Shown piece after piece: positions 12,679 to 15,263 of a stretch of DNA of 45,704 nucleotides. A model generated the notes under the pieces. The model saw nothing but the letters and a program-made list of their open reading frames with translations. It was not told the origin of the DNA and searched no databases. Position numbers and translations under genes: made by a program. The first letter of the stretch is position 1, and each line of letters starts with the position of its first letter. The DNA is from Candidatus Yanofskyibacteriota bacterium (lineage in GTDB: Bacteria > Patescibacteriota > Minisyncoccia > 2-02-FULL-40-12 > GWA2-44-9). The DNA lies in NCBI GenBank assembly GCA_016181045.1, contig JACPAB010000001.1, forward strand, positions 1 through 45,704. Reading direction: 5' to 3'.

Positions 12679-12707
12679 TTGACTTTTTGTGTGAAAAGGC
12701 GTATAAT
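12679..12707 (+). promoter_or_regulatory. Strong promoter of the DGR target gene
   Basis: TTGACT (12679-12684), 17 bp spacer, TATAAT (12702-12707). Confidence 0.82.
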
Positions 12708-12742
12708 TAAAAAATAGTGGTATTACCACCAGCACCTTAACT

Positions 12743-12781
12743 GCCGCGTAGTGCGGCCAAAACTCTCCTGCGTAGTGCGGG
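12743..12781 (+). promoter_or_regulatory. Two tandem hairpins with identical GUAGU loops in the DGR target 5' UTR
   Basis: GCCGC-GTAGT-GCGGC (12743-12757) and CCTGC-GTAGT-GCGGG (12767-12781), followed by SD AAGGAG (12782-12787). Confidence 0.65.
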
Positions 12782-12793
12782 AAGGAGTGTGTT

Positions 12794-13396
12794 ATGTCAG
12801 ATTTCGATCTCACCTACACCCAGACCGGCGATCTCGGCAACAAAATCGGCGGACAGGAAGGTGCCAAAGGCATTCTCTCCGGTGAGCTCGTTGTGGTGAA
12901 GAGAAGCGAGGCCAACCGCCGCTGGATCAAGATTGACGAGAACACCATCGCGGTGGACCTTGAGTCCAGCCCCGGCCTGCCCTTCGCCGGCGCCCAGGTC
13001 GAGAAGCATATCGGTGTTGGCGGCGCGATCTTCCAGAAGCAGGCCGACGGTCTGTATCGAAACGGCCGCAAGGTGGGTCTCCACCTCTCCGGGCGTCAGA
13101 AGGGCGGCAAGGTCGTGAAGGGCTATGAGCTCCGCGACGAGCTCACCGGCAAGCCGGTGCTCAACGCGAATGAGCTCGACGCCCTCTACGACAACCCCCA
13201 TCTCCTCCCCGAGGAATGGAAGCGGGACGAGAACGGCAACATCCGCTTCATCTTCTTCTGGGGGACGATCTACCGCAACTCGGACGGCGGCCTGTACGTC
13301 CGGTACATCTACTTCGACGGCGGGTCGTGGGACCGGGTCTTCAGCTGGCTCGACCGCGGCTGGCGTGGCAACGACCCGGCGGCGCTCGCAAGTTAA
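12794..13396 (+). CDS. DGR target (variable) protein
   Basis: 200 aa ORF with SD and strong promoter; C-terminal VR (NSDGGLYVRYIYFDGGSWDRVFSWLDRGWRGNDPAALA) is an A-substituted version of the TR; GGSW motif. Confidence 0.93.
   Translation: MSDFDLTYTQTGDLGNKIGGQEGAKGILSGELVVVKRSEANRRWIKIDENTIAVDLESSPGLPFAGAQVEKHIGVGGAIFQKQADGLYRNGRKVGLHLSGRQKGGKVVKGYELRDELTGKPVLNANELDALYDNPHLLPEEWKRDENGNIRFIFFWGTIYRNSDGGLYVRYIYFDGGSWDRVFSWLDRGWRGNDPAALAS
13272..13391 (+). repeat. DGR variable repeat (VR)
   Basis: 120 bp ungapped alignment to TR 13765..13884; 15 differences fall on TR adenines, plus one G/C difference near the 3' end. Confidence 0.96.
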
Positions 13397-13431
13397 GTCC
13401 TTGGGACTTGGCTTCTTGGTCAGCGTTGACC
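13395..13431 (+). other. Hairpins immediately 3' of VR
   Basis: AAGTCC-TTG-GGACTT (13395-13409) and GGTCA-gcgt-TGACC (13418-13431). Confidence 0.7.
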
Positions 13432-13496
13432 TTGGATCCTTGGCCCTTGGAGCGGCGAATAAAATCGCTGCAACGCTTTGGAGATATGCGTCAACT

Positions 13497-13528
13497 CCAG
13501 GCCCGTGCAGAAATGCCGGGCCTTTTAA
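13497..13528 (+). terminator. Terminator of the DGR target gene
   Basis: aGGCCCGtgcagaaatgcCGGGCCttttaaat. Confidence 0.7.
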
Positions 13529-13531
13529 ATT

Positions 13532-13541
13532 CTGATATAAT
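13532..13541 (+). promoter_or_regulatory. Putative extended -10 promoter for the TR RNA
   Basis: TGaTATAAT upstream of the TR region; no clear -35. Confidence 0.45.
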
Positions 13542-13764
13542 GATCTTGGAACTAGGTGAATATGCGGGAGATCAAGGTTTCCCGCTACCGAAACCAGTAT
13601 CCATATAACCCAGAGTATCTCTGACTATGGTTTGAGGTAGTGTGGTATATGCGAACTCAAAAACAAAAGAAACTTGGTATAGGGCGTTAAGGTATTACGA
13701 TACCAAATGCGATACAGCTCTGAGAGTATTCAATGGGCAGTGGTATGGAAGACGCTCTATACAC

Positions 13765-13884
13765 ACCGCAACTCGAACGGCAACCTGTACGTCCGGTACA
13801 TCTACTTCAACGGCGGGTCGTGGAACCGGAACTACAACTGGCTCGACAACGACTGGAATGGCAACAACCCGGCGGCGGTCGCAA
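13765..13884 (+). repeat. DGR template repeat (TR)
   Basis: AAC-rich template; see VR. Confidence 0.96.
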
Positions 13885-13894
13885 ATCTCTTACG

Positions 13895-13922
13895 TTCTCT
13901 CCCTACTTATCGGGAGAGTTTT
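13895..13922. other. Hairpin downstream of TR that also contains the avd stop codon
   Basis: CTCTCCC-TACTTATC-GGGAGAG-TTTT. Confidence 0.65.
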
Positions 13923-14250
13923 GTTTCTGAAGCTGACCGCTCCAGCCCCCGATCATTTTCCCTATCTCGTTAATCTTAGTCGATAGAGCTATATATTTCT
14001 TGCTGTCGAGCGACTTTGTCTCCCAAAGGATCATGAGGAGTATCCGCAGCACATCCAGTTTCCGAATAGCTACATTAACGTAGGGCAGTTTGTCGTGTCG
14101 AGGCAGAAAGCTTGCGGTTGCGACTGCTTCTATGATTTCGATAAAATAATTATCGATCCGCTGCCCAAGCGAGTGTTTGTGGGTTTTGGGTATGGTCTGA
14201 TAGTATTCATACCAAACCAAATAAGCGCTTTTGGTCTTTTGTAAAAGCGG
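13903..14250 (-). CDS. avd: DGR accessory variability determinant (Avd-like), N-terminus out of frame with an ATG
   Basis: Frame reads LPLLQKTKSAYLVWYEYYQTIPKTHKHSLGQRIDNYFIEIIEAVATA...LRILLMILWETKSL...INEIGKMIGGWSGQ, Avd-like. The ORF track start at 14220 is TTG and lacks LPLLQKTKSAY. Confidence 0.85.
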   Translation of the reverse strand, partial: PLLQKTKSAYLVWYEYYQTIPKTHKHSLGQRIDNYFIEIIEAVATASFLPRHDKLPYVNVAIRKLDVLRILLMILWETKSLDSKKYIALSTKINEIGKMIGGWSGQLQKQNSPDK

Positions 14251-14261
14251 AAGTGAAGGTT

Positions 14262-14273
14262 GGGGGGGGGGGG
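14262..14273. repeat. G12 homopolymer between divergent avd and RT
   Basis: ggttGGGGGGGGGGGGcgtaac. Confidence 0.9.
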
Positions 14274-14285
14274 CGTAACTGGTGT

Positions 14286-15263
14286 ATGAAAATCAGGTTT
14301 ACTCATAGTTACGAAAGCGTTATATCTTTGGAAAATCTCCTCGAAGCGTGGAAAGAGTTTATCATCGGGAAGAGGTCTCGTAAAGATGTCCAAGAATTCG
14401 AGTTAAATCTGATGGGCAACATCATAGATCTTCATGAAGACCTTACTGCGAAAACCTACTCACACTCCGCCTATGAACCTTTCAATATTTCTGACCCAAA
14501 ACCGCGCAGAATCCACAAATCATTGGTCCGGGACCGGTTGCTCCACCATGCCATTTATCGGCAACTTTATCCATTTTTCGATAAGACATTCATTGCCGAT
14601 TCGTATTCATGCCAGATTAATAAAGGGACACATAAGGCCTTGAATCAATTTCGAGAATTTGGGCATATCGCTTCCAAAAATCACACCAAAACCGTCTGGG
14701 TTCTGAAATGCGATATCCGAAAGTTCTTTGCCAGTATTGACCACGCGGTGCTTTTGGAAATTTTAAGAACGCATATCGATGACGACGACATCATTTGGCT
14801 GCTTGAGAGGATTGTCGGTAGTTTTAACAGCGGCAAACCGAGGACTGGCTTGCCGCTCGGTAATCTTACTTCGCAGCTATTGGTTAACATATACATGAAT
14901 GAGTTTGACCAATTTATGAAGCATCGGATGAAAATTAGATACTATATCCGTTACGCGGATGACTTTGTGGTCTTGTCTCAAGATAAAGCATGGCTCGAAG
15001 AGTTGTTGCCGAAAATTGCTGACTTTCTTTCGGAGCGGCTCAAACTGGACCCGCATCCTGACAAGATCTCAATCCGCACTCTTTCTTCGGGTATCGATTT
15101 TTTGGGCTGGGTTCATTTTCCGGACCATAGGGTTTTGAGGACTGTAACAAAAAGAAGAATGATGAAAAGAATTAAAGAAAACCCCAGACCAGAGGTGATG
15201 AATTCTTATCTTGGTTTACTGAAGCATGGGAATACACAAAAGTTAAGAAAAAGATTGATTTGA
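14286..15263 (+). CDS. DGR-type reverse transcriptase
   Basis: RT motifs incl. YIRYADDF and GLPLGNLTSQLLVNIY (DGR-type GxxxSQ). ORF can also start at GTG 14253, upstream of and reading through the G12 tract. Confidence 0.95.
   Translation: MKIRFTHSYESVISLENLLEAWKEFIIGKRSRKDVQEFELNLMGNIIDLHEDLTAKTYSHSAYEPFNISDPKPRRIHKSLVRDRLLHHAIYRQLYPFFDKTFIADSYSCQINKGTHKALNQFREFGHIASKNHTKTVWVLKCDIRKFFASIDHAVLLEILRTHIDDDDIIWLLERIVGSFNSGKPRTGLPLGNLTSQLLVNIYMNEFDQFMKHRMKIRYYIRYADDFVVLSQDKAWLEELLPKIADFLSERLKLDPHPDKISIRTLSSGIDFLGWVHFPDHRVLRTVTKRRMMKRIKENPRPEVMNSYLGLLKHGNTQKLRKRLI

Follow-up and report, generated by a model that had tools for sequence, protein, structure and literature searches.

A Patescibacteria diversity-generating retroelement with a candidate permuted template RNA and a probably slippery tract in avd

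Diversity-generating retroelements (DGRs) are best described in the Bordetella phage BPP-1 (gene order mtd-avd-TR-brt, TR being the template repeat), where cDNA synthesis is primed by an internal adenine of the spacer (PMC12875486). Among the large groups of cell-borne DGRs is that of the Patescibacteria or Candidate Phyla Radiation (CPR), yet the detailed mechanism is known from a phage only. According to the available part of the survey by Roux et al. 2021 (PMC8144416), DGR clade 2 is restricted to Patescibacteria, its targets are mostly devoid of recognised domains, and its members look less active than average. Here we analyze a DGR from Candidatus Yanofskyibacteriota bacterium, found in a 45,704-nucleotide stretch of DNA (contig JACPAB010000001.1, positions 1 to 45,704; hereinafter the window), using about 110 related loci, with one assembled genome per species, as the base for comparison. 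Taken as a whole, we consider it likely from comparative sequence analysis that this locus combines a leader-primed, permuted template RNA with an avd gene switched by slippage.

The cassette and its adenine-specific divergence

The cassette lies between rpoC (ending at 12431) and ftsK (starting at 15296) in a Patescibacteria genome of 457 kb that is 84.6% complete. We identify it as a DGR because it unites adenine-specific differences between the variable repeat (VR) and TR, a reverse transcriptase (RT) of the DGR clade, and a protein of the bAvd family; on these sequence grounds its status as a genuine, cell-borne Patescibacteria DGR is virtually certain. The two repeats had been delineated in a first-pass annotation of the window, and on realignment their coordinates and gapless 120-bp alignment proved exact, with 104 identities and 16 differences. 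As counted there, 15 of these differences fall on TR adenines (11 A>G, 2 A>T, and 2 A>C), and the remaining one is a G/C difference near the 3′ end, at 13385; given that 32 of the 120 TR bases are adenines, the chance of at least 15 of 16 differences at A is about 3e-8. The estimate of about 11 altered target codons, mostly AAC-derived, likewise held: 12 codons differ, 11 of them through adenines (nine from N, one from Y, and one from D) and one, V37L, through the G/C difference. The same pattern holds clade-wide, with 906 of 941 VR/TR mismatches located at TR adenines in the 75 loci where the VR was located. No further repeat of the TR was found in the window (the next best match being 53/120) and no second copy of the target, remote copies included, in the 457-kb, 84.6%-complete genome. 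The divergence between VR and TR is a record of past activity of the DGR only.

The RT displays the motifs LGNLTSQ and YADD, and among solved structures it is closest to chain 8ub7 (E=1e-40), deposited as Reverse transcriptase, which we take to be the BPP-1 DGR enzyme. In a tree of only 18 rows it groups with the RTs of BPP-1 and other phage DGRs (100/100), apart from two retron-like RTs; the phylogenetic check suggested in the first-pass annotation thus places it inside the DGR clade. RTs of this kind were recovered in 34 of 59 relatives and in 132 of 289 genomes of the class. Avd-type accessory proteins are common, though not universal, in DGRs; here the Avd core matches PF22296 (bAvd) above the cut-off (E=5e-14), and scores 70.7 bits against NF033474, under the cut-off of 80. 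Both the DGR-type RT and the Avd-like neighbor proposed earlier are therefore confirmed, with the qualification, previously unstated, that avd lies on the minus strand. In the same vein, the description of the element as complete applies to the RT, leader, and TR, which are intact, but not to avd, which is frameshifted in its C12 tract as assembled.

That DGRs occur in CPR genomes, as had been noted, is borne out by the Patescibacteria-restricted clade 2 (PMC8144416, available part). Patescibacteria DGRs are an already known kind, and this locus belongs to it. Its layout had been thought unusual; this view does not stand, as the order target-VR, RNA leader, TR, antisense avd, and RT is the rule across the CPR relatives.

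The target carries the VR at its C-terminus and, as claimed earlier, is preceded by what is predicted to be a strong promoter of its own (Table 1). Profile searches, proposed alongside those that recovered the RT and bAvd families, yielded no match for the target in Pfam, NCBIfam, or PHROGs. The proposed structure prediction of the 200-aa protein gave a model that is confident from about residue 41 onward, but Foldseek comparisons with PDB and BFVD returned nothing at E<=0.001, C-type lectins, the fold expected for a DGR target, appearing only as weak hits. Target peptide patterns, in a search that detects close relatives alone, found no match in the genome and viral contig collections. Its probable role is that of a diversified binding protein.

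A structured leader RNA and a candidate priming helix

By aligning the VR-TR interval of the relatives, we found a structured non-coding RNA of ~220 nt (13545-13764) directly 5′ of the TR, hereinafter the leader, which comprises the domains P1-P2 and P3 (Table 1). Compensatory changes are seen in 40 of its 55 pairs; 97% of the cells are paired in both domains, and this value falls to 31-54% when the structures are slid by 1-3 columns. Over 500 shuffles, the observed value was never attained on nine of the ten measures and was attained twice on the tenth, these shuffle tests being inflated by kinship among the loci and the slid controls sharing that same kinship. The leader pairs contain 130 G-U cells versus 7 C-A cells, and therefore the TR-sense strand is the RNA. 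We consider it very probable that the leader forms part of the template RNA. Directly upstream of the leader, a −10 box of the form TANNNT is present in every one of 51 leaders (12.3 expected from shuffles), which makes a dedicated promoter for the template RNA probable. At the other end, a hairpin with a U-rich tail directly follows the TR in about 100 loci; the pairing is partly there by construction, as a hairpin was what was selected at this place, but the sequence varies freely among the loci.

The linker preceding P3, with the consensus AAAUGAAGAU-A-CUUGG, can pair with the 3′ end of the TR and its flank, CAACUCUCUUCAUUU, to form a long-range helix, whose register we set by the TR motif CGxAA, independently of pairing. 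Across 75 distinct loci, 76.7% of the cells of this helix are paired, versus 69.4 ± 0.6 when the flanks are dealt among loci (0/1000 as high) and 39-49% when it is slid; double-change cells number 95 versus 42 ± 5, and own partners exceed swapped partners with z=14. VR/TR identity in the same loci sets in 2-3 nt downstream of P3 and is lost immediately past CGxAA, where the long-range helix has its edge. Next to the helix comes a single, mostly unpaired nucleotide, and then an adenine that is present in 111 of 113 loci and corresponds to A13672 in the window. A comparable arrangement can be drawn for BPP-1, where residues 48-54 of the spacer (AGGTGGT) could base-pair with the 3′ end of the TR and are succeeded by C55 and A56, the latter being, as we assume, the priming adenine of that spacer. 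Because BPP-1 thus has a like order of helix, one base, and adenine, we propose the leader as the primer strand and A13672 as the priming residue. That the leader strand primes the cDNA is a proposal we hold to be just on the probable side, and the assignment to A13672 in particular is tentative.

The leader is widespread among the relatives. A covariance model of P3 (R1) matched 118 places in 89 of the 289 class genomes, and that of P1-P2 (R2) gave 87 matches over 100 loci. Of the 118 P3 places, 93 precede an RT in the same orientation, at a median distance of 539 nt. For RTs of at least 57% identity, a leader is present in 82 of 92 cases, and several of the ten exceptions start at most about 350 nt from a contig end. 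Across the phylum the P3 model matches 63 of 381 genomes, and it confirmed 67 of 75 GTDB contigs containing an exact 20-base P3 motif, nearly all of them from Patescibacteria or unnamed bacteria. One confirmed case is a short contig filed as Bacteroidetes (L287), which is perhaps mis-binned; motif matches in contigs of Pelagibacteraceae and Clostridia were not confirmed by the RNA model and were set aside. The P3 model had no match in the DGR loci of BPP-1 and six other phages, and no Rfam family matched 13400-13940 above chance.

We also considered a viral spread of the leader and rejected it, the RNA model confirming only one of 38 motif-bearing IMG/VR contigs. In that one (L339:10956-11050), the leader RNA is real and is adjoined by two frames, one RT-like and the other Avd-like with a (CT)19 repeat; the contig could carry a DGR of an actual virus or be of CPR origin and filed wrongly. 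In a distant CPR group of RTs with ~50% identity (e.g., L031 and L032), most members are without a strong leader match, and for a few the matches are weak and longer (28-31 bits, about 130 nt), perhaps representing a second RNA subtype.

A probable slippage tract in avd

Wherever avd was found, it is antisense (104/104 loci); in the window it is placed between the TR and RT. Within it, a conserved N-terminal peptide (MSQLNFHKN-like) is separated from a conserved core (LLPLLQKVKSAYLLW-like) by a C tract that ranges from C8 to C13 across the loci and is C12 in the window, with the caveat that homopolymer lengths in assemblies may be wrong by one. On the plus strand this tract reads as G12 (14262-14273), situated between the avd core and the RT and the only G/C run of at least nine in the window. 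Of 82 G/C runs of at least eight in the distinct DGR loci, 79 fall in this 260-bp spot (28 kb in total), versus three elsewhere (583 kb), which amounts to an about 550-fold enrichment; the seven phage DGR loci contain no G/C run of at least seven. Other loci display different short repeats at the same spot, namely (GA)n, (GT)8, and (GGTT)11.

The N-terminal peptide occurs in different frames in different loci. Among 66 distinct loci with an open start, 10 are in frame (129-141 aa) and 56, including the window, are shifted (17-80 aa), with tract offsets of 0, 1, and 2 in 10, 28, and 28 loci, respectively; the in-frame share is below one third (P=0.0007). Several loci that encode the same type of peptide without a C tract read straight through (L127, L128, L129, L140, L142, and L145). 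L131, which carries (GGTT)11, has the gene out of frame, and L127, which retains a short remnant, has it in frame. These patterns make it highly likely that avd is controlled by slippage; that such slippage amounts to heritable phase variation we regard as moderately probable. We rejected the TTG at 14220, given as the start of avd in an automated list of open reading frames, because the N-terminal peptide and further conserved parts of Avd are encoded upstream of it. Nor do we favor a switch of RT translation by this tract, as an in-frame start beyond it exists in only 17 of 55 loci.

Table 1. Coordinates of the features of the cassette in the window
Feature	Position	Strand	Basis
Sigma-70-like promoter of target gene, TTGACT-17-TATAAT	12679..12707	+	11/12 consensus match, predicted
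Target gene, 200 aa, VR at C-terminus	12794..13396	+	Open reading frame; homologues in 51/289 class genomes
VR	13272..13391	+	15/16 differences from TR at TR adenines
Degenerate CTTNG repeat array after VR, strand-specific	13392..13451	+	75 loci
6-bp hairpin beside VR (AAGTCC-TTG-GGACTT)	13395..13409	+	Weakly enriched: 10/75 loci vs 4.5 ± 2.1 expected
Terminator-like hairpin after target gene (GGCCCG...CGGGCC, then T-rich)	13500..13526	+	Read from sequence; unlisted by automated scan
−10 box TATAAT of template RNA, TG two bases upstream	13536..13541	+	TANNNT in 51/51 leaders
Leader domain P1-P2	13545..13653	+	23/31 pairs compensatory; 97.3% of cells paired; model R2
Leader strand of long-range helix, proposed primer strand	13662..13676	+	Comparative pairing
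Leader domain P3, ends 1 nt before TR	13672..13763	+	17/24 pairs compensatory; model R1
TR	13765..13884	+	Alignment to VR; boundaries agree with identity profiles, 75 loci
Second strand of long-range helix, TR 3′ end with flank	13882..13896	+	Imperfect pairing in window
Terminator-like hairpin and U-rich tail closing template RNA, overlaps avd 3′ end (other strand)	13897..13926	+	Scan and comparison
avd	13903..14306	-	Start codon ATG at 14306-14304, then C tract and conserved core down to 13903; frameshifted in the assembly
C12 tract in avd (G12 on + strand), proposed slippage switch	14262..14273	-	Run enrichment; frame counts
DGR reverse transcriptase, 325 aa	14286..15263	+	Domain matches, tree; head-to-head overlap with avd start (14286-14306)

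Two of the elements adjoining the VR deserve comment. The hairpin beside it, an inverted repeat of the sort expected just downstream of a DGR VR, was rejected as a general feature of the clade, given its frequency (Table 1). The CTTNG array reaches a density of 3.0 per 60 nt over 75 loci, versus 0.57 expected and 0.09 on the other strand, with a spacing of 7-8 nt. Its unit resembles the near-invariant ACUUGG of the leader; a role of this likeness in target recognition is a guess.

Elsewhere in the window, 12474-12540, after rpoC, holds a tRNA-like element with an acceptor-like stem (GGGCCCG/CGGGTCC) and a T-arm (GGGGTTCAACTCCCC), which is not called by ARAGORN. Its Rfam matches are weak, to mascRNA (E=0.0018) and tmRNA (E=0.015), the genuine tmRNA being on contig C6. 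Contig C9 of this genome bears a 73% copy of about 200 nt, and the genomes G003 and G029 bear shorter ones, making this a repeated tRNA-like element. At 492-1656 lies the 3′ part of a 23S rRNA, whose score of only 83.7 bits and 1165 nt for 864 model positions hint at an insertion or strong divergence.

Competing explanations and relation to known systems

Put together, the favored explanation would run as follows. The template RNA would start near 13548 and end after the hairpin near 13926; its leader would recruit the RT and Avd, and the leader strand would pair with the 3′ end of the TR and serve as the primer strand, with A13672 initiating. The cDNA would then start at the 3′ boundary of the TR and halt at the P3 structure, the 5′ boundary of the TR, and this adenine-mutagenised cDNA would replace the VR in the target gene. 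Slippage at the C tract would switch Avd, and hence mutagenesis, on and off, in which case the assembled window would represent the OFF state of avd.

With regard to priming, it is also conceivable, if rather unlikely, that the leader is a core part of the template RNA, acting in recruitment and as the 5′ stop, while the cDNA is primed by the 3′ end of the RNA folding back after the terminator hairpin, or by nicked target DNA. A fold-back would accord with the hairpin and U-rich tail that end the RNA just after the TR in about 100 loci, and with the minimum-energy fold of the window, in which the tail pairs with the A-rich linker. Against this stand a helix between the leader and the TR 3′ flank that covaries and sits where VR/TR identity ends, and an order of elements matching that of BPP-1. 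Much less probable is a genuinely BPP-1-like arrangement, in which the true spacer RNA, antisense to avd, follows the TR on its 3′ side and the leader serves only as a regulatory 5′ untranslated region. Such a spacer is required, in structured form, 3′ of the TR in BPP-1 (PMC12875486), and the TR-RT distance is 128-235 nt in all seven phage DGR loci. Yet a terminator-like hairpin stands directly after the TR, the covarying structure is in the leader and not in the avd region, and the 3′ end of avd shows no raised synonymous constraint; for want of such constraint we rejected a spacer RNA within the antisense avd.

As for the tract, RNA polymerase slippage might give a constant mixture of frames and a low level of Avd, without any heritable switch. 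We think this rather improbable, though it would explain why 56 of 66 genomes are out of frame, a state that a costly but needed gene would tolerate only if slippage rescues it; the presence of (GA)n, (GT)8, and (GGTT)11 at the same spot, and of several loci without a C tract that read straight through, speaks against it. The out-of-frame avd of the window assembly could alternatively signify a decaying DGR, its avd broken by a chance frameshift and its mutagenesis stopped. This we hold to be very improbable: the 56 shifted loci, the window included, have the shift within the tract only, flanked by a conserved peptide and a conserved core, and the RT, leader, and TR are intact.

Several observations nonetheless weigh against the favored explanation as a whole. 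The in-frame deficit (10/66, P=0.0007) could mean that avd is expressed via transcriptional slippage, and homopolymers in assemblies can be miscounted by one. The predicted long-range helix is imperfect in the window itself; the count of −10 boxes came from a search range of six positions; and the shuffle controls leave relatedness in, though the slid controls share it. Finally, the modeled fold of the target is without a significant match. Extending the favored explanation beyond this locus, to the effect that many Patescibacteria DGRs are phase-variable hypermutators with a permuted template RNA, priming by an adenine of the 5′ leader, and an avd repeat that switches mutagenesis, is a tentative generalization.

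If avd does have a slippery switch, a targeted hypermutator would in turn be subject to random on/off control. This would hint at a way for cells to keep the cost of a DGR in check, and it would fit the lower apparent activity noted for clade 2 in the available part of PMC8144416. With the leader RNA defined and both the primer helix and the adenine named, retrohoming in CPR becomes directly testable, and the model would provide a second RNA design for targeted mutagenesis. We found no earlier report of the leader RNA or the slippery avd in the literature available, as covered through titles, abstracts, and selected passages, so that their novelty is provisional.

Contingency genes are switched by slipped-strand mispairing at short repeats in the 5′ coding region, with genomes in and out of frame. 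The avd gene resembles them in having a short repeat in its 5′ coding region and in being in frame in some genomes and out of frame in others; unlike them, it serves a targeted mutator and not a surface structure, and its switching is proposed. The nanoarchaeal DGRs, as described in the available part of PMC4372165, similarly belong to very small, probably host-dependent uncultured cells and have orphan targets; they differ in IMH sites with TGGGGT and GRA-loop hairpins inside the target gene, and no leader RNA is reported in that part. Clade 2 (PMC8144416) shares with our locus the host group, a cell-borne setting, and a target without a recognised domain or membrane anchor. By host and features the locus is most likely a member of this clade, for which the available part of the survey describes neither a leader RNA nor an avd tract.

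With BPP-1 the locus shares the adenine-specific transfer from TR to VR, the RT clade, the Avd family, a C-terminal VR, and a helix at the 3′ end of the TR followed by one base and A. The BPP-1 avd lies on the TR strand upstream of the TR, and a spacer separates the TR from brt; in the window, by contrast, avd is antisense and downstream of the TR, a structured RNA precedes the TR on its 5′ side, and avd contains a C tract. The RNA layout is hence not of the BPP-1 type, with avd antisense throughout, the leader 5′ of the TR, and nothing within the avd region that points to a spacer. By analogy, we propose that the design may be that of BPP-1 with the primer strand shifted from the 3′ to the 5′ side of the TR, in other words, a permuted template RNA.

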